This document shows positions 24,188 through 37,644 of a stretch of 64,000 bases of DNA, piece by piece; the first letter of the stretch is position 1; each line of letters begins with the position of its first letter. The stretch is from Blautia sp. An81 (lineage in GTDB: Bacteria; Bacillota; Clostridia; Lachnospirales; Lachnospiraceae). The translations under genes and the position numbers were made by a program. The stretch spans positions 1-64,000 of the forward strand of contig NZ_NFHH01000012.1 in NCBI RefSeq assembly GCF_002161285.1, read 5' to 3'. The notes beneath the pieces were generated by a model. The model saw only the letters and a program-made list of their open reading frames with translations. It did no database searches and was not told the DNA's origin.

Positions 24188-24273
24188 ACATTCTGCCGTG
24201 TTTCTGTTTTTTCAGGTATCATTTCGCCCTTTCTGGAAAAAGTAAAAGAAAAGCCAGAATGGAGCAGAAGTAC

Positions 24274-25029
24274 ATGAAACAGACCTTATTTGTAATACAG
24301 GAACTGGTATCCAGAGAAATGAAGCGGAAATACAGCCGGTCTAAGCTGGGGATTTTGTGGAGTGTTTTAAACCCCTTATTATCTATGACCGTTCTTTCTC
24401 TGGTATTTTCTACCATGTTTCGAAAATCTATTGAAAATTATCCGGTATATTATCTCACAGGTTTTCTGATCTGGAGCTTTTTTACCACAGCTACCAACAC
24501 AGCTATGACTTCTCTGGCTGACAACCAGGCTTTGCTCCTTCAGATCCGCCTTCCCAGAGAAATTTTTCCTTTCTCCCGGGTATGTACGGCCTTTATGAAT
24601 TTTCTCTATTCCCTGGGGGCCTATGTGATGATCCTTGCTGTTTTTCGGATCTCACTGGGCATTTCTGTCCTTTTCTTCCCTCTGGTCATGGTCCTGTTAT
24701 TTTTCTTCTCTCTGGGTGTTGGGTATATTCTGTCGGTCCTCTATGTGTTTTTTGGGGATATCCGTCATCTTTACTCTGTATTTCTCACTCTGCTTATGTA
24801 TCTCTCCGCTCTTTTTTATCCTCTGGAGCTGCTGCCTGAGGGAGTGCAGGCTTTTATCCGGTTAAATCCCATTTATCAGTTTATCTATGCCGCCAGGTCC
24901 TGCGTCATGTACCGGGAAATTCCCTCCGCCTGTCTCTGGGTGAAAATGAGCCTATGGAGTTTTTTGTTCTATCTTGCAGGAATATATATCTTCCGAAAAG
25001 CAAAGACTAAAATCACATTGAAACTTTGA
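24274..25029 (+). CDS. Polysaccharide ABC exporter permease (Wzm/TagG type)
   Basis: A 251-residue permease with six membrane segments. The N-terminus (LVSREMKRKYSRSKLGILW) and the segment LNPIYQFIYAARSC near the end are typical of Wzm/TagG/RfbA permeases that export undecaprenyl-linked glycans or teichoic acids. ATG 24274 has GGAG nine bases upstream; an ATG five codons earlier has none. The ATPase gene follows after 18 bp. It should flip a completed lipid-linked polymer to the outside. Confidence 0.9.
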   Translation: MKQTLFVIQELVSREMKRKYSRSKLGILWSVLNPLLSMTVLSLVFSTMFRKSIENYPVYYLTGFLIWSFFTTATNTAMTSLADNQALLLQIRLPREIFPFSRVCTAFMNFLYSLGAYVMILAVFRISLGISVLFFPLVMVLLFFFSLGVGYILSVLYVFFGDIRHLYSVFLTLLMYLSALFYPLELLPEGVQAFIRLNPIYQFIYAARSCVMYREIPSACLWVKMSLWSFLFYLAGIYIFRKAKTKITLKL

Positions 25030-25047
25030 AACTCCAGGAGGAAACAT

Positions 25048-25812
25048 ATGGAAAAGGGCAGACCGGTAATCTCTGTAAAAAATGTCAGTATGGAATTCCA
25101 GGTACCTTTGGAGGGCAGTTCCAGTCTGAAAGAATATCTTATTAAAGTCTTTACAGGGAAAAACTCCAGCCGTACCCTAAAGGCTCTGAAAAATATCTGG
25201 CTGGACGTTTATGAAGGAGAAATCCTGGGGGTCATAGGCACCAATGGCTCCGGGAAAAGCACTTTGCTGAAGATTATTTCAGGAGCCATTACCCCTACCA
25301 GAGGCAGGGTGGAAACAGTGGAAGAGAACATTCAGCTTCTCACTTTAGGCACTGGTTTTGACCGGGAGCTGACGGCCAGGGAAAATGTATATCTAAACGG
25401 CGCACTCCTTGGATACAGCCGCAGTTTTCTGAAAGAAAAGTATCCGGATATTGTCCGTTTTGCTGAGCTGGAAGGCTTTATGGAACAGAAAGTAAAAAAT
25501 TTCTCTTCAGGCATGGTATCAAGGCTGGGATTTGCAATCGCCACGGCTTCCGATAAACCGGGAATTCTGATTTTAGATGAAGTCCTCAGTGTAGGAGATG
25601 TATTTTTCAAGGAAAAAAGTACCGCCAGGATCCGGGAACTGATGGAAAAAGGACGGGCAGTCCTCATTGTTTCTCATTCTACAGATACTATTCTCCAAAA
25701 CTGCACCAGAGCTCTCTGGATCGAAAAAGGGATACAGAAGCTTACCGGAAATCCTAAAGAGGTCTGCCAGGCCTATCTGGACTATGGGAGGAAACGAGGT
25801 GAAAGGAAATGA
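25048..25812 (+). CDS. Polysaccharide ABC exporter ATPase (Wzt/TagH type)
   Basis: A 254-residue ATPase. An N-terminal segment of about 45 residues precedes the Walker A motif, as in Wzt/TagH. Walker A is IGTNGSGKST, the signature NFSSGMVSRLGFA, Walker B ILILDEVLSVGD. There is no C-terminal carbohydrate-binding domain, so export is probably not tied to a terminal cap. AGGAGG precedes the ATG. Its stop overlaps the ATG of the HAD protein (ATGA), placing that protein in the same operon. Confidence 0.9.
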   Translation: MEKGRPVISVKNVSMEFQVPLEGSSSLKEYLIKVFTGKNSSRTLKALKNIWLDVYEGEILGVIGTNGSGKSTLLKIISGAITPTRGRVETVEENIQLLTLGTGFDRELTARENVYLNGALLGYSRSFLKEKYPDIVRFAELEGFMEQKVKNFSSGMVSRLGFAIATASDKPGILILDEVLSVGDVFFKEKSTARIRELMEKGRAVLIVSHSTDTILQNCTRALWIEKGIQKLTGNPKEVCQAYLDYGRKRGERK

Positions 25813-27884
25813 AAGCCCGTATTTACAAGGTTCTTGTAAACCGTGTGCCTGCTATCCGCAGAAAATATCAGGAAGCCAGAAAAGAAGCGGTTACCAGAGG
25901 CGCCAGGCTCCTTCTCTTTGGGAAGCTTCTTTGGTGGAATCTGGAATATTATCTTTCAGGGGGAAGGACACAGAAGACAGAAATCTGCTTTACAGAAAAG
26001 AAAAAACTGCTCTTTGAAGAATCGAAAAACTTTACTGGCATGTCCGGGGAACAGCTTGTAAAAGAGCTGTCTGGGTATGACGTGATTTCTTTTGATGTCT
26101 TTGACACCCTTCTCCTCCGACCCTTTTCCGCTCCTGAAGACCTGTTCTATCTGATAGGAACAGAACTCCATTATCCAGATTTTCCGGTACTCCGGGTATT
26201 GGCAGAAGATCAGGCCCGGAAACGAAAAGCAGAAAAAACAGGGACCGGGGAAGTCACCTTAAAAGAAATCTGGGAATGTCTGGAACCCCTTACAGGAATC
26301 CCTGTGGAGACAGGAATGGCTGTGGAAATGAGCACTGAGGAAAAGTATTGTCAGGGGAATCTATACTTTCTGCCTGTCCTGGATAGTTTGAAAAAAGTTC
26401 AGAAAGTCCTTCTGGCAGTCAGTGACATGTATCTGGAGAAAAGCTTTATCCAAAAGCTTCTGGAGAAATATTATGGTCCTGTCTTCCATAGGGTTTTGAT
26501 TTCCCAGGAGGAAGGCTGTTCCAAGGCAAATGGAAAGCTTTATGAAAAAGTCCGGGAAACTGCTAAAGAAATTTGGGCTGAACAAACAGGCTCTGCTGAA
26601 GGCTGCTGGCGGCTGGCTCATGTGGGCGATAACCCTCACTCCGATATCTTCATGGCTAAGAAACGGCAGATAGATGCCTTTCTCTATCCAAATCCTCAGG
26701 ACGCTGGAAATCCTTACCGGCCCTTTGACATGTCCAGGATTACGGGAACCATCTACCGGGGAATGGTAAATATCCGGTTTCATACAGGGGCAGGGAAGTA
26801 TTCCGTCTTCTATGAGCTTGGCTATGCTTACGGAGGCCTGGCGGCCTTAGGTTTTTGTCAGTTTATCCACAGGAAAGTTCAGGAATGGGAAAGATGCCGG
26901 ATCTGTTTTCTGGCCAGGGATGGAGACGTCTTAAAACAGGTCTATGACCAGCTCTATCCCGGATCCTCCACCTGCTATCTGCTCTGGTCCAGAAACGTCT
27001 CTGCAAGGCTGGGGGCAGAGCGGTTTCCTTTTGATTTTTTTCAACGCTTTCTCTTTCAGAAAATCAATCAGGGATATTCTCTGGAAAGGATTTTCGCCAG
27101 CATGAGACTTTCTGTACTGAGGGAGGATGCCTGCCGGTATCTGCACTGCTCAAAGGACAGCGTCCTTACGGAAAAGAAAGCTCTTAGCTGCCGGAATTTC
27201 CTTCTAAAGCAGTGGGAAAGGGTGCTGGAGGCTTATAAAGAAGAACAAGATCTGGCAGGAGAGTATCTGAGGACGCTGCTCCTTTCTCCAGAGGAATGTG
27301 CACAAAATTATGGGCAGGAGCAAAGAAAAATTGTCCTGGCAGATATCGGCTGGGCCGGCAGCGGCCCCCTGGGACTGGAATATGTCCTTCACAAAACCTG
27401 TGGCCCTTCCTGGGAAGTCCATACTCTTTTGGCAGGCAGCAGCGGCGCTCCCAGTCCGGACAGGGACAGCTCCCAGGGCTTTTTCTTTGAAAATCAGATG
27501 GACAGTTATTTTTTCTCCCAGAGCCACAACCGGGACCTTTGGAAATTCCACGACCTGCATAAGAAGCACAACTTGTATCTGGAACTTTTGTTTACCTCAC
27601 CTTCTCCCAGTTTCCAGGGATTTGAAAAAACAGAGAACGGCAATATAAATTTTCTGTTTGCCCCAAAGGAAAGCCATGAAAAGGAAGTTCGTGAAATCCA
27701 GAAGGGCATTCTGGACTTTGTTGCAGATTACCAGAAATATTTCGGAGATTTTACTGCAAAGGGCCAGGGAAACATTTCCGGAAGGGACGCCTATGCTCCT
27801 CTTGTTCTTCTCCTGAAAGATACAGCTTTCCAGAAAAAACTGGAAAAAGCTTTTTTGTGGGATATCCGTGAAAATGTAGAATGA
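25809..27884 (+). CDS. HAD-superfamily protein, COG5610-like, of the polysaccharide locus
   Basis: A 691-residue soluble protein. After a basic N-terminal 90 residues comes a HAD phosphatase-like domain: ISFDVFDTLLLRP (motif I, both Asp), LLAVSDMYLEK (motif II Ser), a Lys in EEGCSKANGKLY (motif III) and HVGDNPHSDIFMAKK (motif IV Asp). The second half (from about 330) has CFLARDGDVLKQVYDQLY and IVLADIGWAGSGPLG and is shared with the paralogue at 31365. Such proteins are found in capsule and O-antigen loci. A role as sugar phosphatase or glycan-modifying enzyme is inferred from context; the second half has no known activity. Confidence 0.7.
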   Translation: MKARIYKVLVNRVPAIRRKYQEARKEAVTRGARLLLFGKLLWWNLEYYLSGGRTQKTEICFTEKKKLLFEESKNFTGMSGEQLVKELSGYDVISFDVFDTLLLRPFSAPEDLFYLIGTELHYPDFPVLRVLAEDQARKRKAEKTGTGEVTLKEIWECLEPLTGIPVETGMAVEMSTEEKYCQGNLYFLPVLDSLKKVQKVLLAVSDMYLEKSFIQKLLEKYYGPVFHRVLISQEEGCSKANGKLYEKVRETAKEIWAEQTGSAEGCWRLAHVGDNPHSDIFMAKKRQIDAFLYPNPQDAGNPYRPFDMSRITGTIYRGMVNIRFHTGAGKYSVFYELGYAYGGLAALGFCQFIHRKVQEWERCRICFLARDGDVLKQVYDQLYPGSSTCYLLWSRNVSARLGAERFPFDFFQRFLFQKINQGYSLERIFASMRLSVLREDACRYLHCSKDSVLTEKKALSCRNFLLKQWERVLEAYKEEQDLAGEYLRTLLLSPEECAQNYGQEQRKIVLADIGWAGSGPLGLEYVLHKTCGPSWEVHTLLAGSSGAPSPDRDSSQGFFFENQMDSYFFSQSHNRDLWKFHDLHKKHNLYLELLFTSPSPSFQGFEKTENGNINFLFAPKESHEKEVREIQKGILDFVADYQKYFGDFTAKGQGNISGRDAYAPLVLLLKDTAFQKKLEKAFLWDIRENVE

Positions 27885-27909
27885 AACAGCAAAGGGCAGG
27901 TATGAAGAA

Positions 27910-29232
27910 ATGAGAAAAGGACACACTATCTTAAAAGCAGTCAGCTTTATCTCCAGGCTGCTTCTGGTATTTCTCTATTTTTGCGCCGCCGCCCAGGTAA
28001 TGAAAGAAATCTGGAGAGAACGGTTTCTGGCCATTACACTTCTGTATGTGGCGGTACTGGAGATTTTCCAGGCTCTTATGGAAGCTGGAAACGTAAGCCA
28101 GAGAAGGATCCTGGATCTGGTATATGGACAATTTTTCGCAGCCCTTTGCACGAATATCCTTTTCGGCACTCTGTTGTGGACTATTTCCGCCCAGCCTGGG
28201 ATCAGCCTTTTCTGGGAATTTTCTATTCTTACCCTGCTGGAAGCTTTTACCGGGATTTTATGGGCGGCCTTCTCCTTTACCCTGTATCTGAGAAAACAGA
28301 CCCGGAACCAGGCTCTTTATGTCTACGGAGATGGAGAAGACTGGCAGAGAACGGTAAAAGAAAACAACAGCAGAAACGGCTATTTCCGTATCAGCAAAGC
28401 AGTTTCTTACCGGAAAGGACTGAACTTCATCGAGCATATCCTTCCTGAATACCAGGCCCTTTTTCTGGGAAAGCTTCCCGACAGTGACCGGAACCGGCTC
28501 CTGAAGCTGGGAATCTGTACAGACCGGGAATGTTTTGCGGTTCCCGGAATCCCAGACATCTATCTGCAAAACTCCCGTATCATCCGCCTTCATGACAAGG
28601 TGCTCTTCCGAAGCGGGAGAGGATATCTCACAAAAGAACAGGAAAGGGTGAAGCGGGCAGAAGATATTATCTGCGCCCTTCTGCTGTTAATCCCGGCGCT
28701 TCCTTTAATGGGACTGATCAGCCTGTGCATTAAAGCAGAAGATGGCGGACCGGTATTTTACCGGCAGGAGAGAGTGACCAGATATGGAAAATCTTTCTTC
28801 ATGCTGAAATTCCGCAGCATGGTCCCGGAAGCGGAAAAAGAGGGACCCAGGCTGGCGGCCAGAAATGACGCCAGGGTTACCCGAACAGGGAAGATCCTTC
28901 GGAATCTTCATTTGGATGAGCTGCCTCAGCTTTTTAACGTACTGGCCGGAGATATGTCCATGGTAGGTCCCCGGCCGGAAAGGCGGGAATTTATTGAAGA
29001 CTATTCCCGTATCCTTCCAGAGTTTAAGGAGCGGCTCCGGGTAAAAGGCGGACTGACAGGATACGCCCAGATTTACGGGAAATACAGTACCGGACCGGAA
29101 GACAAGCTGAAGTATGATCTCATCTACATCTATAATTATTCCCTCCGCCTGGATATCCGGCTGCTGTTTCTTACCATCCGCATCTTTTTTCAGAAAGAAA
29201 ACGCCCAGGGAGTGGAGGAATCAAATTTGTAA
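27910..29232 (+). CDS. Polyprenyl-phosphate sugar-1-phosphate transferase (WbaP-like)
   Basis: A 440-residue protein with four N-terminal membrane segments (first about 125 residues), a middle soluble domain (QALYVYGDGEDW; nucleotide-binding-like) and a C-terminal bacterial sugar transferase domain preceded by another hydrophobic helix (about 258-277). The catalytic part has VTRYGKSFFMLKFRSM, LHLDELPQLFNVLAGDMSMVGPRPE and LTGYAQI. It starts the glycan by moving a hexose-1-phosphate onto undecaprenyl phosphate in the inner leaflet. It lies between the exporter and the keto-sugar genes and is likely the initiating enzyme for the polymer they build. Confidence 0.9.
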   Translation: MRKGHTILKAVSFISRLLLVFLYFCAAAQVMKEIWRERFLAITLLYVAVLEIFQALMEAGNVSQRRILDLVYGQFFAALCTNILFGTLLWTISAQPGISLFWEFSILTLLEAFTGILWAAFSFTLYLRKQTRNQALYVYGDGEDWQRTVKENNSRNGYFRISKAVSYRKGLNFIEHILPEYQALFLGKLPDSDRNRLLKLGICTDRECFAVPGIPDIYLQNSRIIRLHDKVLFRSGRGYLTKEQERVKRAEDIICALLLLIPALPLMGLISLCIKAEDGGPVFYRQERVTRYGKSFFMLKFRSMVPEAEKEGPRLAARNDARVTRTGKILRNLHLDELPQLFNVLAGDMSMVGPRPERREFIEDYSRILPEFKERLRVKGGLTGYAQIYGKYSTGPEDKLKYDLIYIYNYSLRLDIRLLFLTIRIFFQKENAQGVEESNL

Positions 29233-29247
29233 AGGAGCGTATGTTCT

Positions 29248-30825
29248 ATGGAAAATATCAGATTACTGGACTGTACCCTCAGGGATGGAGGATACATCAA
29301 CCAATGGGGGTTTGGAGAAAAGACTATCCGAAGCATTGCATCCCGGCTTACAGAGGCAGGGACCGATATCATAGAAGTGGGATTTTTACGGAACTGTACC
29401 TGGGACAAAGACAAAACTCTGTTTCCATCTATAAAGAAATTGAAGAAAATCCTTCCTGCCAATTCAAGCAGCACCAGATTTGCGGCCATGGCCCTCCATA
29501 ATCAGTACGATGTAGAAAAACTGGAGCCCTGTGACGGAAGTATTGATATCATTCGGGTGACCTTTCATGATTATGATATCGAAGAGGGACTTGTTTTCTG
29601 TGAAAAGGTTAAGAAGAAAGGCTATCAGCTCTTTGTGAATCCCATCAATATCATGGGATATTCAGACCGGCAGCTTCTAGAGCTGCTGGAAAAGGTAAAC
29701 CGGCTTCATCCCTACGGCTTTTCTATTGTGGATACCTTCGGCTCCATGACCGGAAGGGAACTGACCAGGATCTATTCTCTCTGTGAAAACAATCTGGAAA
29801 AAGACATTGTCCTTGGCCTCCATCTCCACGAAAATATGGCCCAGTCCTTCTCTCTGGCTCAGTCTTTTCTGAAAATGCGGGAGCAGGCAAGAAGCTGTGT
29901 CCTGGACGCCTCTTTAAACGGCATGGGACGGGTTCCCGGAAATCTTTGTATAGAACTGATCATGGATTATCTGAACAAACATTTCGGGAAGTCCTATGAC
30001 ATAGACCCGGTGCTGGACGCCATTGAAGAATATATCTCTCCTATCAAAAAACAGGAACCCTGGGGATATATGGCAGAATATTTTCTTTCTGCCAAGTACA
30101 ATCTCCATCGAAATTATGCAGAATATCTCCTTACGAAAGGCGCTCTTTCCTCCCGGGATATGCACCGTATCCTTCAGATGATACCGGAAGAGAAAAAAAG
30201 CGCCTTTGACCAGAACTATATAGAATACCTGTACCACCAGTATGAAAACCACACCGTTTCTGATGAAAAGACCCTGGATGCTCTGCGGAAAGCTTTCCGA
30301 GATAAAAAAGCACTTCTTCTGGCCCCTGGCCCCGGCCTTAAAGAATACCGGAAGCAGGTGGAAGATTATCAAAGAGCCCATAGGCCTGTTCCTATCTCCG
30401 TAAATTTCTTTTACGACCAGCAGGAGGAAGGATATGCCTTTTTCAGCAATTCCAAACGATTCCAGGAATATCGTTCCTTGAGGAAACCAGGGGTTCAGGT
30501 AATCCTTACTTCCAACATTACCACAGGTATCCGGCCAGACGACCATGTGATCAATCTCTACCGTCTGTCCCAGGAAGAAACAGAACGGGGAAACAGCGGT
30601 ATCCTGCTTCTTCGGCTTCTCCTCCTTCTGGGGGTAAGAGAGGGGGCTCTGGCGGGCTTTGACGGCTATATTGAAGGAGAAGAAAACTATCTGGAAGGAT
30701 ACTTCGGCAGGTTTGCCAGCGCCCCTCTGGGTGATAACCGGAAGATTGCCCGGGAACTGAAAAAGCTTGGCGGAAAGATGCGGCTTACTTTTGTAACTCC
30801 TTCCGCTTATGAGGAGGAAATGTAG
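29248..30825 (+). CDS. DRE-TIM metallolyase (pyruvate aldolase-like) fused to a C-terminal domain
   Basis: A 525-residue protein. Residues 1-270 are an HMGL-like barrel: LLDCTLRDGGYINQW has the Arg-Asp pair that binds enolate and metal, LGLHLHENMAQS the HxH metal ligands, and LNGMGRVPGN the closing NGxGRxxGN motif. This matches 4-hydroxy-2-oxovalerate aldolase-type enzymes, which add pyruvate to an aldehyde. Residues about 350-525 (ALLLAPGPGLKEYRKQ, DDHVINLYRL, LAGFDGYIEGEENY) look like a separate Rossmann-like domain of the 6-hydroxymethylpterin pyrophosphokinase-like/DUF115 kind. The KdsC-like gene begins one base after its stop. In this setting it is the likely maker of a 2-keto-3-deoxy sugar acid. 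Confidence 0.75.
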   Translation: MENIRLLDCTLRDGGYINQWGFGEKTIRSIASRLTEAGTDIIEVGFLRNCTWDKDKTLFPSIKKLKKILPANSSSTRFAAMALHNQYDVEKLEPCDGSIDIIRVTFHDYDIEEGLVFCEKVKKKGYQLFVNPINIMGYSDRQLLELLEKVNRLHPYGFSIVDTFGSMTGRELTRIYSLCENNLEKDIVLGLHLHENMAQSFSLAQSFLKMREQARSCVLDASLNGMGRVPGNLCIELIMDYLNKHFGKSYDIDPVLDAIEEYISPIKKQEPWGYMAEYFLSAKYNLHRNYAEYLLTKGALSSRDMHRILQMIPEEKKSAFDQNYIEYLYHQYENHTVSDEKTLDALRKAFRDKKALLLAPGPGLKEYRKQVEDYQRAHRPVPISVNFFYDQQEEGYAFFSNSKRFQEYRSLRKPGVQVILTSNITTGIRPDDHVINLYRLSQEETERGNSGILLLRLLLLLGVREGALAGFDGYIEGEENYLEGYFGRFASAPLGDNRKIARELKKLGGKMRLTFVTPSAYEEEM

Positions 30826-31368
30826 ATGAGGGCAGATTTTATTGACTGGGATAAGATCCGATATCTGATCCTGGATGTAGATGGCACCATGACTGACGGA
30901 GGCGTCTATCTGGACAGCCAGGGCAATGAAACAAAAAAATTTTCCATTAAAGACGGAGCCGGGATCCTTTTGGCCCGGCAGGGAGGCATCCAGCCAGTGA
31001 TCCTTACCGGCAGGGAAAGCCTCTGTGTAACCCAAAGGGCCCAGGAGCTTCAGATTCCCTATGTCTTTCAAAATGTAAAAAAGAAGAAGGAGTTTCTCCG
31101 GGAATTTTTCCGGGAGAGGCAGGTCAGCCGGGAAGAAGCTGCCTATATAGGTGACGACTTAAATGATCTGGGCGCCATGAGCCTTACTGCAGTCACCGCC
31201 TGTCCCCGGGATGCTGTAAAAGAAGTCCAGGACTCCTGTACCTGTGTTTTAAACAGCAGAGGCGGAGAAGGGGCTGTAAGAGAGTTTGCGGAGCTGCTCC
31301 TGAAGAAAAAAGGGAACCTGGAAGAATGTAAGGAAGCCCTCTGGGGACAGGAGGCGAGAACAGAATGA
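30826..31368 (+). CDS. KdsC-like HAD phosphatase
   Basis: A 180-residue C0-type HAD phosphatase. ILDVDGTMTDGGVYLD has the two catalytic Asp, FSIKDGAGILLAR the flap typical of KdsC, VILTGRES motif II and YIGDDLNDLGAM motif IV. KdsC and its relatives remove the phosphate from Kdo-8-phosphate or nonulosonic acid 9-phosphates. The gene lies between the aldolase and, two genes on, the KdsB-like CMP transferase. The stop overlaps the next ATG by four bases. Substrate: most likely the phosphorylated product of the aldolase. Confidence 0.85.
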   Translation: MRADFIDWDKIRYLILDVDGTMTDGGVYLDSQGNETKKFSIKDGAGILLARQGGIQPVILTGRESLCVTQRAQELQIPYVFQNVKKKKEFLREFFRERQVSREEAAYIGDDLNDLGAMSLTAVTACPRDAVKEVQDSCTCVLNSRGGEGAVREFAELLLKKKGNLEECKEALWGQEARTE

Positions 31369-34055
31369 AAGACTGGTTCTATGAAAAATTTGTAAGAAAA
31401 AATCCCAGGGTGCAAAGGGCCTATGAAACCTATGTTCAGGGGCACCTGGAAGAACACCAGAGAAGCCGGTTTAAACACTGGCTGATACTCCTTGCCCTGT
31501 CCTGGAAATACCGGAGAAGCCAGATAAACAGACTCCATACTCTGACCCTGGCAAAACTGAAAGATAACAAAGCAAAAATCCGGATGGAGTGGATCCCCGG
31601 AGCCTGCTGCTACAATCTCTATGTCTCTCAGGACGGCCTTCACTACAGGTTCCAGGAAAAGACACGAAATCATCTTTGTGAAGTAGAAAATCTGAAGCAG
31701 GACCAGATGTATTTTTTTAAGTTCAAGGTCTCTATGGACGGCAGCAGGTACAGCGATTTTTCCCAGGTTCTCACCGTATCCACAGTGCAGAACCAAGAAC
31801 TCTTTTTCATGAAAAAACTGGCCTTAAAAGGAGAAAGGATTTTCTCTGATGCTTCTGGAAAACACTCGAAAAAATCCAGAAAAGCCGGAACTTTGGAGGG
31901 CAGCAGGGATTTCCAGGGAAGCTTTCCCCAAGAGGGAATCGCGGAGATTTCCTGGACCCCAGTTTCCGGGGCCCTCCATTATAATCTCTATCGATCAGAA
32001 GAGGGCGGGAGCTACCGGTTCCTCATACAGACCAGGGAGACTGGTTATGCGGATAAAGAGCTTAAAAGCGGAACCGCCTATTCTTATCTGCTGAAATATA
32101 CAAAAAACGGAAAAACCTATCAGGAATTTCCCAGAAGACTGAAACTTACGGCGCCAGGTGAAAAGTTCACGAAGAAAAACAGCGGGCGGCTTTTTGAAAA
32201 GGGGGCGGAATCCCAGGCTTTCAACCGGGTTTCTGTAATGAACTTTGCCAAAGGCCTGATGCCTTATGATGTAATCTCCTTTGATGTCTTTGATACTCTG
32301 CTTTTCCGTCCCTTCTCTAATCCCTCAGATCTGTTCATGCTTGTGGGAGAGAAGCTGGACATTATGAATTTTACAGAAATCCGCATACAGGCAGAAGAAG
32401 AGGCCAGGAGGAAAAATCAGCTTCTCCGGGGCAACCGTGAAGTTACCCTCAAAGAAATCTATGAACTGGTGGCCCAGGAGACCGGCATAGATCCAAAGGC
32501 AGGAGCGGATCTGGAATTTTCTCTGGAATACGAGCTCTGCTATCCCAACTCTTATATGCAGGAAGTTTTTTATATCCTGGCCGCTCAAGGAAAGACCCTG
32601 GTGGCCCTGTCCGATATGTATCTGCCCAGGGAACTCCTTTCTCGTCTCCTTTCCGCCAAAGGCTATGAAGATTTTGACCGTGTTATGGTGTCCTGTGACT
32701 ATAACTGTTCCAAAGGAAACGGCGGCCTGTATGAGGTGCTAAAAGAACAGTATCCGGGAAAGATGGTCCATATAGGGGACAACCGGCTTTCCGATATAGA
32801 AAGGGCAAAGGAAAAAGGACTGGATACCCGATTCTACCAGAATGTAAATGAAGCAGGCAATATTTTCCGGGCCAGGGACATGTCACGGCTGACAGGTTCT
32901 GCCTACCGGGGAATCGTCAATGCAAAGCTGCACAGCGGCGCCAGGCAGTACAGTCCTTACTATGAAGTAGGATTTGTCTATACGGGAATCTACGTTATGG
33001 GATTCTGTCAGTGGATCTTTCGCTATATCCAGGAGCACAAAATCGAAAAAGTATTGTTTCTGGCCCGGGAGGGGGACCTGTATCAGAAGGTCTTTCAGTC
33101 CATGTATCCGGAGATTCCCACGGAATATGTCCTCTGGTCCAGGATTGGAGTGGTAAAGACCATTGTAGGAAAAAACCGGCATCCTTACCTTCTTCAGATC
33201 ATTCACCACAAGGCCAATGCCCTTTACAAGTCAAAAATCGGAACTCTTTTTGAACGGACTGGCATTGGTGAGCTGAAAAAATACCTTTCCGATTACCGGA
33301 TAAAAGAGGAGGAGTTTCTGACTCCTGAAAATGAAAAGATCGTCCGACAGCTTCTGATAGACCATTGGGAAGAGCTTGAGAACTGTTATGTCCGGGATCA
33401 AGAGCGGATCCGGCAGTATCTCACCAGAAAAACCGGCTCCGCCCGGTCTGTAGCTGTAGTAGATGTAGGCTGGTCAGGAAATAATGTCCTACAGGTAAAA
33501 TATCTTCTGGAACAAGTATATAAGCTGGACTGTCAGGTTCACTGTCTCCTGGCTGCCGCCAGAAATGTAAACGACACTTATATGGCGGCTATGATCCAGA
33601 AAGAAGAAGTAAAGACCTATATCTTTTCCAATATGTATAATAAAGGCCTTCATGACGCTCACCAGGAAGAGAATAACCGGCTGAACTCCTTTTTCTTTGA
33701 AATCCTCACCCAGTCCTGTACTCCTACCTTTCTGGGATTTGACAGGGATGGACGGTTCCTCTATGACATTCCTGAAGTAGAGAATTATAAGAAAAATCAG
33801 GAAATCCATCAGGGAGCTCTGGATTTTGTAAAGGAATATCAGCAGCACTTCCGGAACTTTCCCTATATGCTGGATATTTCCGGCCATGACGCCTATATGC
33901 CCTTCCAGTATTTTTCCAGAAATCTCCTCTGGATAAAGAAGTATTTCAGCGGCTATATCTTTGGGCGGGATCTTTTCGCCACCCAGGAAAAGGCAGTTAT
34001 GGAGTCTGTGGAAGAAGTTATGAAAAAAGCCGGAATTTGGGAGGGAAGATCATGA
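31365..34055 (+). CDS. HAD-superfamily protein, COG5610-like, with two N-terminal FN3-like domains
   Basis: An 896-residue protein paralogous to the one at 25809. Residues about 65-145 (RMEWIPGACCYNLYVSQDG) and 185-265 (EISWTPVSGALHYNLYRS) are two fibronectin type III-like repeats. The HAD domain starts near 300 with ISFDVFDTLLFRP, then ALSDMYLPRE, CSKGNGGLY and HIGDNRLSDIERAK. The C-terminal half repeats VLFLAREGDLYQKVFQSMY and VAVVDVGWSGNNVLQ as in the paralogue. No signal peptide is present, which is odd for FN3-type modules; they may bind the glycan or a partner protein inside the cell. Coupled to the KdsC-like gene before it and the transferase after it (ATGA overlaps). Confidence 0.7.
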   Translation: MKDWFYEKFVRKNPRVQRAYETYVQGHLEEHQRSRFKHWLILLALSWKYRRSQINRLHTLTLAKLKDNKAKIRMEWIPGACCYNLYVSQDGLHYRFQEKTRNHLCEVENLKQDQMYFFKFKVSMDGSRYSDFSQVLTVSTVQNQELFFMKKLALKGERIFSDASGKHSKKSRKAGTLEGSRDFQGSFPQEGIAEISWTPVSGALHYNLYRSEEGGSYRFLIQTRETGYADKELKSGTAYSYLLKYTKNGKTYQEFPRRLKLTAPGEKFTKKNSGRLFEKGAESQAFNRVSVMNFAKGLMPYDVISFDVFDTLLFRPFSNPSDLFMLVGEKLDIMNFTEIRIQAEEEARRKNQLLRGNREVTLKEIYELVAQETGIDPKAGADLEFSLEYELCYPNSYMQEVFYILAAQGKTLVALSDMYLPRELLSRLLSAKGYEDFDRVMVSCDYNCSKGNGGLYEVLKEQYPGKMVHIGDNRLSDIERAKEKGLDTRFYQNVNEAGNIFRARDMSRLTGSAYRGIVNAKLHSGARQYSPYYEVGFVYTGIYVMGFCQWIFRYIQEHKIEKVLFLAREGDLYQKVFQSMYPEIPTEYVLWSRIGVVKTIVGKNRHPYLLQIIHHKANALYKSKIGTLFERTGIGELKKYLSDYRIKEEEFLTPENEKIVRQLLIDHWEELENCYVRDQERIRQYLTRKTGSARSVAVVDVGWSGNNVLQVKYLLEQVYKLDCQVHCLLAAARNVNDTYMAAMIQKEEVKTYIFSNMYNKGLHDAHQEENNRLNSFFFEILTQSCTPTFLGFDRDGRFLYDIPEVENYKKNQEIHQGALDFVKEYQQHFRNFPYMLDISGHDAYMPFQYFSRNLLWIKKYFSGYIFGRDLFATQEKAVMESVEEVMKKAGIWEGRS

Positions 34056-35626
34056 TTTTATATCAGGCGCTGTCATCTTATCAGATTTTAGAATGTATCA
34101 TCCACCGCCAGGTCTTTTACCGGGATAAACAAGCGGTGCTGCTCCTGGGCAATTATATTAACGAACGGATGCCCTGGTACCAGGAGCTGGAAAGCCGGGG
34201 ATTTTTTGACCAGATATTCCTTTTTCGTTTCGGAGGGTACAAAGGGACAGAAGAGGAGATCCTCGGCCAGATAGAAAAAGAATACCAGAAGACAATCCCC
34301 TATGCTCCGGAAGAGTTTGAAAAACTTTTGATCGCAGGAATCCACACTTACCTTCAGGTCTGGCTGATTTCCAAAGAGATTTCTTTTGAGATGTTTGAGG
34401 ACGGAAGCGGAGCCTTAAGCCGCCCCTGGGTCTTGGCAGATATCCACAAGAAATCTTCTCCTGCCAGATATGGGCTTATAGAGAAATATCATCTCTATGA
34501 CCATAAAAGTCCCTGGATCACCAGAAAATATTATGATGAAAAAGCACAGCTTCCGGGATTTCAGGACGAAAAAGCACAAGATTTTCAGGTCCTGGAAAAC
34601 TTTCTGAGGCTGTCCCCGGAAATCCAGGAAAATATCCGCAGGCTTTTTCGTCTGCCCTCCAAAAAAGGAGATTGTGCCCAGGTGCTTCTTCTGACTCAGC
34701 AGTTTGCCAATCTGGGCCAGCTAACTTTAGATGAGCAGAAGGGCATCTACCAGCATGTATTTGACTATTATTTACGGGGGAAGCAGGTGCTCATAAAGCC
34801 CCATCCCGATGATATCCTCTATTATCCCAGGCTCTTTCCCCATTGTGAGGTCCTGAAGGAGCCTTTTCCCTCGGAGCTTTTGCCATTTGTTTTTGAAAAG
34901 CTTCCGGAAATATTGTCCACAGTCAGCTCCACAGGGGTAAACCAGATCCGCCGGGAATTTTCAGATACCCTGATTTTTAATGGGCTCTATGAACAGACCT
35001 TTCACTGGGACGGCTCTTACTATACTGCCCTTGGGCTGGGAGCGTATCTGGGTGCAGAGGGAATCCTGTGCCGGGGAGCCAATAAGGTCCAGCTTGAAAA
35101 TCTGGCAAAAATCCACTGGCCCGAAAATAAAAAGCTGAAAATCTCCCAAAACCGGGAAGAGCTTACAGGAAAAGTCCTTTGTATACAAGATGATTTTGAA
35201 GAATGCCAAGAAAGCAGGAAGGAACCGGAAAACGGCGAGGATATCTGGAAACTGGAGGATGAACTACTGGGAGTCCTCTATCTGAACTCCCGAAAAAATT
35301 ACCGGATGTACCAGCCGGGAGAAAAAGAAAAGTTTTTCCAGATGGTACCTGTCTCCATTCGGGAAGGGAGCAGCGCACACACCCTATATTTTTATCCAGC
35401 CAGGGAAGAGGTGAGAAAAATGGCAGAGAGATTTATAAGCTCCCAGAGTCAGGAAGATACTTCCGTACCGGTTTCCATAGAAGAGCTTACGGACAGCCAG
35501 ATACAGATCCGTATGCTGGAAGGTATCCTGGCAGCTACGGAAAAAAGACTGACAGAATATATAAAAACAGAAAAAGAACTGCGAAGAGAGCTGGAGCTGG
35601 TAACACAGAGAAAACAGTTCCAATAG
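34052..35626 (+). CDS. GT-B glycosyltransferase of the CMP-sugar (sialyl/Kdo transferase) type
   Basis: About 524 residues. The motif EMFEDGSGAL (about residues 112-121) is the (D/E)(D/E)G motif and LIKPHPDDILYY (about 248-259) the HP motif shared by bacterial sialyl-, polysialyl- and Kdo-type transferases (GT38, GT52, GT80 group); LSTVSSTGVNQI then gives the following Ser/Thr pair. All use CMP-activated keto sugars. A coiled-coil like tail (about 485-524) follows. ATG 34052 lies after GGGAGG and overlaps the previous stop. The next gene makes a CMP-sugar, so donor and enzyme match. Exact family assignment is uncertain. Confidence 0.7.
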   Translation: MILYQALSSYQILECIIHRQVFYRDKQAVLLLGNYINERMPWYQELESRGFFDQIFLFRFGGYKGTEEEILGQIEKEYQKTIPYAPEEFEKLLIAGIHTYLQVWLISKEISFEMFEDGSGALSRPWVLADIHKKSSPARYGLIEKYHLYDHKSPWITRKYYDEKAQLPGFQDEKAQDFQVLENFLRLSPEIQENIRRLFRLPSKKGDCAQVLLLTQQFANLGQLTLDEQKGIYQHVFDYYLRGKQVLIKPHPDDILYYPRLFPHCEVLKEPFPSELLPFVFEKLPEILSTVSSTGVNQIRREFSDTLIFNGLYEQTFHWDGSYYTALGLGAYLGAEGILCRGANKVQLENLAKIHWPENKKLKISQNREELTGKVLCIQDDFEECQESRKEPENGEDIWKLEDELLGVLYLNSRKNYRMYQPGEKEKFFQMVPVSIREGSSAHTLYFYPAREEVRKMAERFISSQSQEDTSVPVSIEELTDSQIQIRMLEGILAATEKRLTEYIKTEKELRRELELVTQRKQFQ

Positions 35627-35670
35627 GACCGGACATCTTGTTAAACTATGATCCAGAAAGGGGAAATACC

Positions 35671-36408
35671 ATGGAGACAGTAGGAATCATTCCTGCCAGA
35701 TACGGCTCTTCCAGGCTTCCGGGGAAGCCATTAATGGACATTAATGGAAAACCTATGATCCAGCATGTTTATGAGCGGGCGAGAAAAGCGGAAAATCTGC
35801 AGAAAATATGGGTGGCCACAGACAGTATGGAAATTCTCCGGGCCTGTGAAAAACGGCAGATTCCCGTAATCCTCACAAAGGATACCCACCGGTGCGCCGC
35901 CCATCGGCTTGGGGAAGCTGCAGAACAGATAAAGGCTGATTTTTATGTACAGATCAACGGGGACGAACCTTTGATATCCTGGGAAAATATTGCTGCGGCA
36001 GTACCGGAAAGATTTCCAGACGAGGCAGAGTTCGGCACCAACATCATTATGCCGGTGACCAGTCCCCAAGAGGTTCTGGATTCTTCCAATATCAAAGTCG
36101 TCTTTGACAGCAGCTACAAGGCGCTGTATATGTCCAGAACACCTATTCCCTGTCCCTTCGGCACTCTGGACTGCATCTACTACAAACATGTGGGAATCAT
36201 CGGATACAGCCGGCAGATGCTGGATTTTTATAAAAACTCTTCTCCCGGTCAGCTGGAACGGACAGAGGGCATTGATACCCTCCGGTTTCTGGATTACGGA
36301 AAGCCTCTTTATCTGATACCGGTAGCCAAAGGAGAAAGTCTCTCTGTAGATACCTTAAAGGACCTGGAAGAGGTGCGGAAAAGGTCGAAAAACCGGGAAC
36401 TCAGTTGA
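35671..36408 (+). CDS. kdsB: KdsB-like CMP-keto-deoxy sugar synthetase
   Basis: A 245-residue cytidylyltransferase. IIPARYGSSRLPGKPLMDI is the CTP-binding loop, VATDSMEI and QINGDEPLI the metal and base sites, and YYKHVGIIGYSRQML and LERTEGIDTLRFLDYG the sugar-carboxylate region of CMP-Kdo synthetase. The start is ATG 35671, after AAAGGGG; an upstream TTG has no site. It should activate a 2-keto-3-deoxy acid with CTP. Kdo itself is a Gram-negative hallmark, and no KdsA or KdsD gene is present here, so the true sugar may be a Kdo-like acid made by the aldolase upstream. Last gene of the locus. Confidence 0.88.
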   Translation: METVGIIPARYGSSRLPGKPLMDINGKPMIQHVYERARKAENLQKIWVATDSMEILRACEKRQIPVILTKDTHRCAAHRLGEAAEQIKADFYVQINGDEPLISWENIAAAVPERFPDEAEFGTNIIMPVTSPQEVLDSSNIKVVFDSSYKALYMSRTPIPCPFGTLDCIYYKHVGIIGYSRQMLDFYKNSSPGQLERTEGIDTLRFLDYGKPLYLIPVAKGESLSVDTLKDLEEVRKRSKNRELS

Positions 36409-36487: not shown

Positions 36488-37127
36488 ATGGTACGTGAAT
36501 ATCTGGAACAGAATGTGTATGAAGCTCTGATGGACCGTTTTAAACTTCTCTTTGAAGAATTTGACAACATCTATGTTTCCTTTTCCGGAGGAAAGGACAG
36601 CGGTCTGCTTTTAAACCTGGTACTGGACTATCGGAATAAATACTATCCCGAAAAATCCATTGGGGTTTTTCATCAGGACTTTGAAGCCCAGTATACAGTG
36701 ACTACAGAGTATATCGAAAGAACCTTTGAAAAGATCAAAGACCAGGTAGAACCTTACTGGGTCTGCCTTCCCATGGCTACCCGGACGGCTCTCAGCAGCT
36801 ATGAAATGTTCTGGTATCCCTGGGATGACAAGAAACAGGAGCTCTGGGTGCGGGAAATGCCCAAACATGATTATGTGATCAACCTGGAAAACAACCCTAT
36901 CCGGACCTACCGCTATAAAATGCACCAGGAAGACCTGGCCAAGCAGTTCGGCAGATGGTACCGGGTAGCTCACGGAACGAAAAAAACCGTCTGCCTTCTG
37001 GGCATGACTGAAAAACGACCATACCTGCCGCTTCATGGGCTTCGGTCTTACCAGACAGCAGCAGAAGAGAGTAGATGTGATCCGGGAAAAATATAAGAGT
37101 TTGGAGGATATCGAATATGGAGTTTAA
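36488..37127 (+). pseudogene. ibrA: ibrA (DUF3440 PAPS reductase-like), internal deletion and frameshift
   Basis: The first 175 codons match IbrA-like PP-loop proteins: IYVSFSGGKDSGLLLNLVL is the PP-loop and VFHQDFEAQY follows, with YRYKMHQEDLAKQFGRWY further on. Near 37005 the frame leaves the family; the conserved C-terminus (TCRFMGFGLTRQQQKRVDVIREKY) appears in another frame from about 37023 and ends at TAA 37125-37127, overlapping the ibrB start by 11 bp. Full-length relatives are about 400 residues, so roughly 190 residues are missing, and even the joined frame would lack the middle domain and one Cys of the TGCxFC motif (Met here). Probably dead. Confidence 0.75.
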
Positions 37128-37644
37128 AAGTCCTGCATACTATATCATTCCGGTGCCGGTGGAAAAGATCAAACCCAATACATACAATCCCAACGCCGTA
37201 GCTCCGCCGGAAATGAAGCTGCTCTATGAGAGCATTAAAGCCGATGGCTATACTATTCCTATTGTCTGCTATTATGTAAAGGCTCAGGACGAATATATTA
37301 TCGTAGACGGATTCCACCGCTACCGGGTGATCACAGAGCACAAGGATATTTATGAGCGGGAACATGGAATGCTTCCGGTCTCTGTGATCAATAAGCCCAT
37401 CGACCAGCGAATGGCCAGCACTATCCGCCATAACCGGGCAAGGGGCAGCCACGATGTGGACCTGATGAGCAACATTGTAAAGGAGCTCCACGAGCTGGGC
37501 CGGTCCGACGCCTGGATATCCAAACATCTGGGTATGGATAAAGACGAAATCCTGCGGCTTAAGCAGATTACCGGCCTGGCGGCGCTGTTTAAGGATGTGA
37601 AATTTGGAAAAGCCTGGGTTCCTACAGAGGAAGAGGAGCAGTAG
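37117..37644 (+). CDS. ibrB: IbrB-like ParB/Srx nuclease-domain protein
   Basis: A 175-residue ParB-fold protein. IKPNTYNPNAVAPPEMKLLYESI is the N-terminal ParB box region, IIVDGFHRYRVI has the GxxR-like motif, and IRHNRARGSHDVDLM the basic motif of the Srx/ParB fold, followed by a helical HTH-like segment (SDAWISKHLGMDKDEILRLKQI). It is paired with IbrA-type PAPS reductase-like proteins in many bacteria, often on mobile elements; the pair was named as immunoglobulin-binding regulators in E. coli. The biochemical role is not settled. It seems intact although its partner gene is broken. GGAGG lies before the ATG at 37117. Confidence 0.75.
   Translation: MEFKSPAYYIIPVPVEKIKPNTYNPNAVAPPEMKLLYESIKADGYTIPIVCYYVKAQDEYIIVDGFHRYRVITEHKDIYEREHGMLPVSVINKPIDQRMASTIRHNRARGSHDVDLMSNIVKELHELGRSDAWISKHLGMDKDEILRLKQITGLAALFKDVKFGKAWVPTEEEEQ

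Follow-up and report, generated by a model that had tools for sequence, protein, structure and literature searches.

The window analysed here is a stretch of 64,000 nucleotides from Blautia sp. An81 (contig C4; the genome measures 4.3 Mb and has a completeness rating of 100%), and it carries on one strand an operon-like run of nine genes (24259-36408, from open reading frame coordinates and Pfam/NCBIfam profiles) in which an aldolase of the DRE-TIM type accompanies KdsC-like and KdsB-like enzymes. The genes are, in order, Wzm-like, Wzt-like, large HAD-domain, EPS_sugtrans, aldolase, KdsC-like, large HAD-domain, polysialyltransferase-type glycosyltransferase, and KdsB-like; adjoining genes overlap by no more than 19 bases or are separated by fewer than 50, as expected of an operon. 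We propose, with a probability of roughly 0.7, that this locus makes a cytidine monophosphate (CMP)-activated 3-deoxy-2-ulosonic acid by way of the aldolase and that the acid becomes part of a surface polysaccharide that is exported. The genomic case for a real, recurrent gene module is strong; the gene set is not a product of chance, since other genera have the same combination of genes. Four of the enzymes had been singled out by the original prediction, made from the sequence of the window, as lying close together in one polysaccharide operon, and all four genes are intact, share a strand, lie where they had been placed, and score over profile cut-offs.

The first of the four (29248-30825, + strand) is a pyruvate-type DRE-TIM aldolase with an extra C-terminal domain, a proposed synthase of a 2-keto-3-deoxy acid or its phosphate, and scores 58.8 bits on the HMGL-like family PF00682 (cut-off, 29). 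By a sequence search and by a fold search of its predicted model (mean predicted local distance difference test score [pLDDT], 78.8; predicted template modelling score, 0.50; stretches within residues 222-275 below pLDDT 50), its nearest solved structure is 3dxi, followed by 4-hydroxy-2-oxovalerate aldolases. The arginine and aspartate of the DRE motif and the HxH of DRE-TIM metallolyases are present, and R12, D13, H192, H194, and N196 are invariant in all 80 aligned aldolase rows; we take D13 and the HxH residues to have the metal role familiar from 4-hydroxy-2-oxo acid (HOA) aldolase chemistry. The C-terminal domain (30283-30822, + strand; residues ~346-525) was missed by the original prediction. 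It appears to be distantly MptE-like, a name drawn from an hhalign probability of 92.7% against a 13-row MptE-like alignment and from weak Pfam matches in members of the domain (MptE-like in 3/13, best E of 0.002; CST-I in 1/13). The window's own copy of the domain matched neither of these Pfam families, a profile search against solved sequences gave one insignificant match (SteA-like; E of 0.24), and the 50 rows listed from the whole-model fold search, all of them barrel-type aldolases, synthases, lyases, or carboxylases, included no structural match to it.

The adjoining phosphatase gene (30826-31368, + strand) reaches the KdsC-like model TIGR01670 (131.1 bits; cut-off, 106.95) and misses the equivalog NF007019 (133.1 bits; cut-off, 208). 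Its best model, the KDN-9-phosphatase NF058599, gives 141.6 bits, under the cut-off of 180, and its solved relatives are mostly of the KdsC type, the best being 3e81, which bears the PDB label acylneuraminate cytidylyltransferase. The glycosyltransferase of the GT-B, polysialyltransferase type (34037-35626, + strand), a proposed CMP-ulosonate transferase, scores 32.0 bits on PF07388 (cut-off, 23.3) and 22.4 bits on PF07922 (GT52), under its cut-off of 26.1. It does contain the EDG and HP stretches attributed to it by the original prediction, which we take to be functional motifs of polysialyltransferase-type enzymes. The fold search with its predicted model, a weak one (mean pLDDT, 68.3), ranks an alpha-2,3-sialyltransferase and a bacterial polysialyltransferase first among PDB entries, with other GT-B enzymes close behind and a Neisseria lipooligosaccharide sialyltransferase lower down. 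The last gene (35638-36408, + strand) encodes a KdsB-like CTP:ulosonate cytidylyltransferase (PF02348, 155.7 bits; subfamily NF003952, 225.4 bits against 193), which likely starts at the ATG at 35671, where its relatives begin in the alignment.

Aldolase genes beside KdsB and the identity of the sugar

The absence of kdsA and kdsD from the locus had been remarked upon in the original prediction, and it appears to extend to the whole genome. A profile search of the window genome found no KdsA over cut-off and no NeuB: PF00793 identifies two genes and PF03102 one of the same two, and both are 3-deoxy-D-arabino-heptulosonate 7-phosphate (DAHP) synthases by NCBIfam models over cut-off. The one found by PF03102, at 42 bits, is a type Ib DAHP synthase, and its 107.7 bits on the KdsA model fall short of the cut-off of 314. 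No arabinose-5-phosphate isomerase (KpsF/KdsD) over cut-off is present in the genome, the best TIGR00393 match reaching 20.7 bits against 203.7. A KdsA or NeuB feeding the pathway from elsewhere in the genome, which the original prediction had suggested looking for, was ruled out, with DAHP synthases alone being found.

Among 200 genomes sampled from the family (~3 Mb each), matches were obtained to the aldolase in 87 (E≤1e-20), to KdsB in 19 (E≤1e-20), to the NeuB family in 85 (E≤1e-30), and to KdsA, over cut-off, in 5. Comparison of coordinates by hand placed 16 of the 19 KdsB-like genes within 7 kb of an aldolase match and 2 within 2 kb of KdsA (G116 and G184). A rough estimate puts 0.15% of random positions within 8 kb of one of 53 aldolase loci (E≤1e-40), so the linkage is far beyond chance, and the suggestion that an aldolase stands in place of KdsA holds for gene position. 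Of the 16 genomes with an aldolase beside KdsB, a few of which are incomplete (84-89%), 11 have neither KdsA (over cut-off) nor NeuB (E≤1e-30); the other 5 (G052, G082, G097, G108, and G156) carry NeuB on a different contig, and G052 has both an aldolase-linked KdsB and a KdsA, on different contigs.

Such linkage bears on whether the aldolase serves this pathway at all. It might act elsewhere, as an aldolase in the catabolism of 4-hydroxy-2-oxo acids or as a synthase of the alkylmalate type, with the keto acid coming from another enzyme or from the host; members of the DRE-TIM superfamily are diverse, and 26 of the 53 aldolase loci lack a CMP-transferase (22 have a thiamine diphosphate [ThDP] enzyme and 4 have neither). 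We regard this explanation as quite unlikely, given the tight linkage to KdsB across genera, the near mutual exclusion with KdsA (G052 has both), the lack of a KdsA or NeuB source in the window genome, and the occurrence of aldolases of the HpaI family at the same position in two other genomes.

These HpaI-family genes emerged from a sample of 378 genomes of the phylum, in which the long aldolase (E≤1e-40) is rare (3 genomes, the window's own included) and KdsB (E≤1e-20) is found in 39. With the window's own genome excluded, KdsA is present over cut-off in 32 of 38 KdsB genomes. Among the six KdsA-less genomes, G211 has the aldolase directly beside KdsB, and in G243 and G333 the gene immediately upstream of KdsB belongs to the HpaI aldolase family (over cut-off on PF03328, with the matches to the models of HpaI, GarL, and rhamnonate aldolase all falling under theirs). 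Two unrelated families of pyruvate aldolase stand where KdsA is missing, the HpaI kind in two genomes, where it possibly represents a second aldolase route.

The HpaI-family genes lie at L135:7322-8110 and L136:7411-8163, and the corresponding KdsB genes at L135:8056-8874 and L136:8147-8977; downstream are a methyltransferase-like gene (weak in L135) and then a D-2-hydroxyacid dehydrogenase gene, and L136 has a PseF-like gene ~6 kb from KdsB. In another KdsA-less genome, a KdsB-like gene lies beside FkbH-type and transketolase-like genes on a short contig (L137:365-3711), and G559 has a KdsA-linked KdsB together with a ThDP-kind aldolase on another contig.

If the aldolase joined pyruvate to D-arabinose 5-phosphate, the product would be the 8-phosphate of 3-deoxy-D-manno-octulosonic acid (Kdo), the sugar would be ordinary Kdo, and the first enzyme alone would be new. 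KdsC- and KdsB-type enzymes are both present, the latter reaching NF003952 and having the CMP-Kdo synthetase 1gq9 as its closest solved relative. The same enzyme, however, narrowly misses the KdsB equivalog TIGR00466 (150.6 bits against 155.2), an arabinose-5-phosphate isomerase over cut-off is absent from the genome, and the KdsB sequences themselves point away from Kdo. In an alignment of 56 KdsB proteins (30 aldolase-linked; 20 KdsA-linked, from 18 of the 32 KdsA-bearing phylum genomes and two family genomes; and 6 others), the motif E.LEQLR is conserved in 20/20 KdsA-linked and 0/30 aldolase-linked proteins and in 2/6 of the others; LEQLR is present in the CMP-Kdo synthetase chains 1gq9 and 3k8d and is replaced by IDTLR in the window enzyme. 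Three further motifs follow the same division less sharply: GT[DE]R is found in 19/20 KdsA-linked and 5/30 aldolase-linked proteins; QGDEP, which is altered in the window enzyme, in 20/20 and 11/30; and H[IVL]G, which the window enzyme retains, in 20/20 and 13/30. PMC7717453, in its discussion of KdsB, assigns QGDEP to the nucleotide motif and counts FSR and RHIGVYAYR among the substrate motifs; LEQLR goes unmentioned there. In a quick tree, the aldolase-linked KdsB proteins form two groups, of which one is the sister of the group that includes every KdsA-linked protein, so the difference in motifs partly follows descent. The lack of LEQLR suggests a sugar other than Kdo without proving it; judged by these sequences, the sugar of the locus is probably not Kdo, and we consider the Kdo explanation unlikely.

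There is, in addition, a very small chance that the substrate of the KdsB-like enzyme is a phosphonate or some other non-ulosonate with which the polymer is decorated. Activation of phosphonates by nucleotidyl transfer is reported to be widespread (PMC6697681), but the best NCBIfam models of the enzyme are those of KdsB, and phosphonate activation was set aside since the genome gave no match to phosphoenolpyruvate (PEP) mutase (PF13714, E≤0.001).

Two genomic settings of the aldolase family

The genes found beside the aldolase disclose a second habitat of the family that the original prediction had also missed. All family-search rows at E≤1e-40 (the window and 52 others) were taken as aldolase loci, and same-strand partners were sought up to 6 kb away (up to 8 kb in the case of KdsB) at bit-score thresholds that we set ourselves. 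The partner was KdsB at 16 of these 53 loci, a NeuA/PseF-type transferase at 11, and a ThDP enzyme at 22, with none at 4 and both kinds at 0. Nineteen further loci, from named relatives, added 13 with KdsB, 5 with NeuA/PseF, and one on a contig ending too early (L038); they were found by peptide patterns of the window protein and lean to close kin, and some (Gemmiger and Fournierella) are near copies. Candidatus Blautia species are the closest named relatives of the window genome. The named relatives of the window aldolase include those from Gemmiger, Fournierella, several Lachnospiraceae metagenome-assembled genomes (MAGs), and a Treponema MAG; the last (L052) has KdsB, aldolase, and KdsC together, and the locus is thus not confined to Gram-positive bacteria, as the original prediction would have had it.

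In a quick tree of 80 proteins, the window aldolase belongs to a clade of 25; 24 of these are encoded beside a CMP-transferase (18 KdsB and 6 NeuA/PseF type), and the locus of the remaining one is truncated by the end of its contig. Partner labels change 16 times on this tree, against 42.4 times in shuffles, which indicates that partners have been switched several times but far less often than at random.

The two settings also differ in their other genes. Among 46 CMP-type loci (45 scored as such, 16 of them with a NeuA/PseF-type partner, plus L038), KdsC-like genes are found at 27 and relatives of the polysialyltransferase-type glycosyltransferase near 17; neither is found at any of the 22 ThDP-type loci. 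Other HAD phosphatases are present at 3/46 CMP-type and 12/22 ThDP-type loci, and the CDP-dideoxysugar genes RfbF, RfbG, or RfbH at 0/46 and 13/22. The aldolase itself has at least 480 residues at 39/46 CMP-type and 20/22 ThDP-type loci. Three Blautia-type loci (L038, L039, and L056) have 345-residue aldolases without the C-terminal domain in an operon that otherwise matches (that of L038 ending at the contig end), and hence the aldol step probably does not need the domain; a role for it in binding or transferring a CMP-sugar is a guess.

At the ThDP loci, the ThDP genes of L091 and L101 are acetolactate-synthase-like, and a glucose-1-phosphate cytidylyltransferase (L094) and RfbH (L089) score over their cut-offs. 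ThDP-paired aldolases are found at L069, L070, L074, L076, L077, L079, L082-L084, L087-L092, L094-L096, L099-L102, and L142. Judged by gene content, these loci likely represent a pathway for branched-chain sugars with aldolase-made side chains. Pyruvate aldolases make 4-hydroxy-2-oxo acids. The carboligase ErwE is reported to prefer 4-hydroxy-2-oxo acid donors (PMC12247030), which would tie both habitats of the aldolase to one kind of product. The side chain of caryophyllose, given as 1,3,4,5-tetrahydroxyhexyl (PMC5706390), lacks a hydroxyl at the position where a 2-keto-3-deoxy acid, once decarboxylated, would also lack one, and so fits an aldolase product. We found no literature naming this aldolase in pathways of the erwiniose or caryophyllose type, and the main texts of four papers on mycobacterial lipooligosaccharides, searched for an aldolase gene in the caryophyllose loci, do not contain the word "aldolase".

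A further 54 weaker aldolase rows (E of 1.8e-32 to 2.5e-22) were treated as another family: the 8 sampled are 323-352 residues long and form a separate branch, and none of the partner genes was found near these 8.

Assembly, export, and neighbouring genes

The upstream genes of the operon bear out the Wzm/Wzt exporter of the original prediction. The Wzm-like ABC-2 permease for polysaccharide export (24259-25029, + strand) scores 63.7 bits on PF01061 (cut-off, 26.9) and 73.3 bits on a galactan exporter model, under its cut-off of 380, and the Wzt/TagH-like ABC ATPase (25048-25812, + strand) is over cut-off on PF00005 and gives 183 bits on the teichoic acid export ATPase model NF010065, under its cut-off of 538. 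The enzyme described as WbaP-like (27910-29232, + strand) is an initiating polyprenyl glycosylphosphotransferase of the EPS_sugtrans family (TIGR03025, 306.9 bits against 295.55; PF02397, 209.9 against 27); the resemblance to WbaP itself fell short of the cut-off of that model (181 bits against 403). Of the two large HAD-domain proteins, the first (25809-27884, + strand), perhaps a polymer assembly enzyme, has weak HAD matches that are all under cut-off and resembles the second (31365-34055, + strand), which reaches TIGR01549 (26.1 bits against 23.3) and is conserved in sibling loci.

Sibling operons L036, L037, L039, and L056 contain, between the glycosyltransferase and KdsB genes, two hexapeptide-type (acyltransferase-like) genes, two of which were checked against Pfam, and the polymer of these siblings may accordingly be acylated; comparison of the interval 35626-35671 with the four loci found both genes missing from the window. 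Beyond the operon (36488-37644) lie a PAPS-reductase-like gene of 202 codons (under the Pfam cut-off) and a ParB-like gene, which we take to be an IbrA/IbrB-like pair. The counterpart of the former in L039 encodes 443 residues with a DUF3440 domain, and the window copy is thus shortened.

Proposed pathway and comparison with known systems

In the synthesis that we favour, D13, H192, and H194 of the aldolase would hold a divalent metal and, with R12, would generate the enolate of pyruvate, by analogy with HOA-aldolase chemistry. The aldehyde to which the enzyme would add this enolate is probably an aldose phosphate drawn from central metabolism, and the product would be a 2-keto-3-deoxy acid phosphate; the KdsC-like phosphatase would remove the phosphate, the KdsB-like enzyme would form the CMP-sugar, and the polysialyltransferase-like enzyme would transfer the residue onto a growing chain for export by Wzm/Wzt. 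What the sequences show directly is that the genes are there, in this order, that they recur, that aldolase and KdsA largely exclude each other, and that key residues are conserved; the individual reactions, the aldehyde that accepts the enolate, the number of carbons in the sugar, and the nature of the polymer are inferred.

A number of observations weigh against this pathway. The aldolase falls far short of the 4-hydroxy-2-oxovalerate aldolase model TIGR03217 (57.5 bits against 286) and is 15-18% identical to solved HOA aldolases, and our literature searches found no characterised enzyme of its branch. In an alignment to 1nvm, a tyrosine occupies the position of DmpG His21, which we take to be the acid/base residue, so acid/base catalysis must differ in detail; this position is tyrosine at 39/46 CMP-type and 20/22 ThDP-type loci and histidine at 4/46 CMP-type loci. 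The operon contains no gene for the supply of an unusual aldehyde. At 19/46 CMP-type loci, some of them on short contigs, no KdsC-like gene is found within 6 kb on the same strand at our thresholds, and a phosphorylated product is thus not the general case. Ten of the 11 family genomes in the NeuA/PseF-type group carry a NeuB as well, in one case on the same contig at a distance of ~20 kb, and the transferase there could serve another pathway. The KdsB of G129 lies near neither KdsA nor the aldolase, the nearest (divergent) aldolase match being ~16 kb away, and G406 (at a contig end), G531, and G543 have KdsB without KdsA or aldolase as far as could be seen. Two KdsB proteins from these four genomes (L138 and L139) retain LEQLR with no KdsA found, at odds with a clean rule, though gaps in the assemblies could explain this.

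A broader proposition, to which we give an even chance, is that these two-domain pyruvate aldolases, which are common in the family to which the window genome belongs, are general makers of 2-keto-3-deoxy sugar acids for surface glycans, with PEP-using synthases having been replaced more than once. In one use, diverged KdsB or NeuA/PseF-type enzymes would turn the acid into a CMP-activated glycosyl donor; in the other, it would be decarboxylated by a ThDP enzyme and grafted as a branch onto a CDP-3,6-dideoxy-4-keto sugar. Replacement of the PEP-using synthases by aldolases of the DRE-TIM and HpaI types would yield CMP-ulosonates other than Kdo and the nonulosonates.

To our knowledge, CMP-activated ulosonic acids (Kdo, sialic, pseudaminic, and legionaminic acids) are made by PEP-dependent synthases of one superfamily. 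Entry by way of a pyruvate aldolase would be a different chemistry, reversible and independent of PEP. With such a route, more kinds of acidic surface sugar would be possible in gut bacteria, and the KdsB genes of genomes without KdsA would be accounted for. The ThDP loci suggest where branched sugars such as erwiniose and caryophyllose may obtain their keto-acid side chains. Among the matches listed from the open-access literature, we found no description of a DRE-TIM aldolase feeding KdsB, and an earlier description is possible.

With the 4-hydroxy-2-oxovalerate aldolases DmpG and BphI, the window aldolase shares the DRE-TIM barrel, the R/D/HxH site, and presumed pyruvate enolate chemistry; it differs in its score far under the model cut-off, in the residue, mostly tyrosine, at the His21 position, in its MptE-like domain, and in belonging to a polysaccharide rather than a catabolic operon. 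Its closest solved relative, the "putative aldolase" BVU_2661 of Bacteroides vulgatus (3dxi), is of the same aldolase type; according to the PDB title, the N-terminal domain alone was solved.

The classical Kdo pathway runs through KdsD, KdsA, KdsC, KdsB, and WaaA/KpsC. The locus shares with it a KdsC-type phosphatase, a KdsB-type cytidylyltransferase, and, as proposed, CMP-sugar-dependent transfer, whereas it has a pyruvate aldolase for the PEP-using KdsA, no KdsD over cut-off, a KdsB without LEQLR, and a polysialyltransferase-like glycosyltransferase. Nonulosonate pathways (NeuB/NeuA), of which KDN in Bacteroides is an example, have in common with the locus CMP activation and a glycosyltransferase of the polysialyltransferase type, and the window phosphatase scores best on a KDN-9-phosphatase model; in contrast to these pathways, the genome has no NeuB, and the transferase is of the KdsB rather than the NeuA type. 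The carboligases of erwiniose, caryophyllose, and yersiniose synthesis (ErwE, MMAR_2332, and YerE) recall the sister aldolase loci that pair with an acetolactate-synthase-like ThDP enzyme; the window differs in having a CMP-transferase instead, with no ThDP or CDP-dideoxysugar gene scored within 6 kb. Finally, the original prediction had treated Kdo as a Gram-negative matter, but a kdsABCD island, with kdsA and kdsD, is reported in the Gram-positive Bacillus coahuilensis m2-6 (PMC4744853), and keto-deoxy acid genes in Gram-positive bacteria are not new in themselves. Unlike that island, which has both KdsA and KdsD, the window has an aldolase in the place of KdsA, and the recurrence of this gene swap in relatives is a hint that acidic surface sugars may be made by a route not recognised before.

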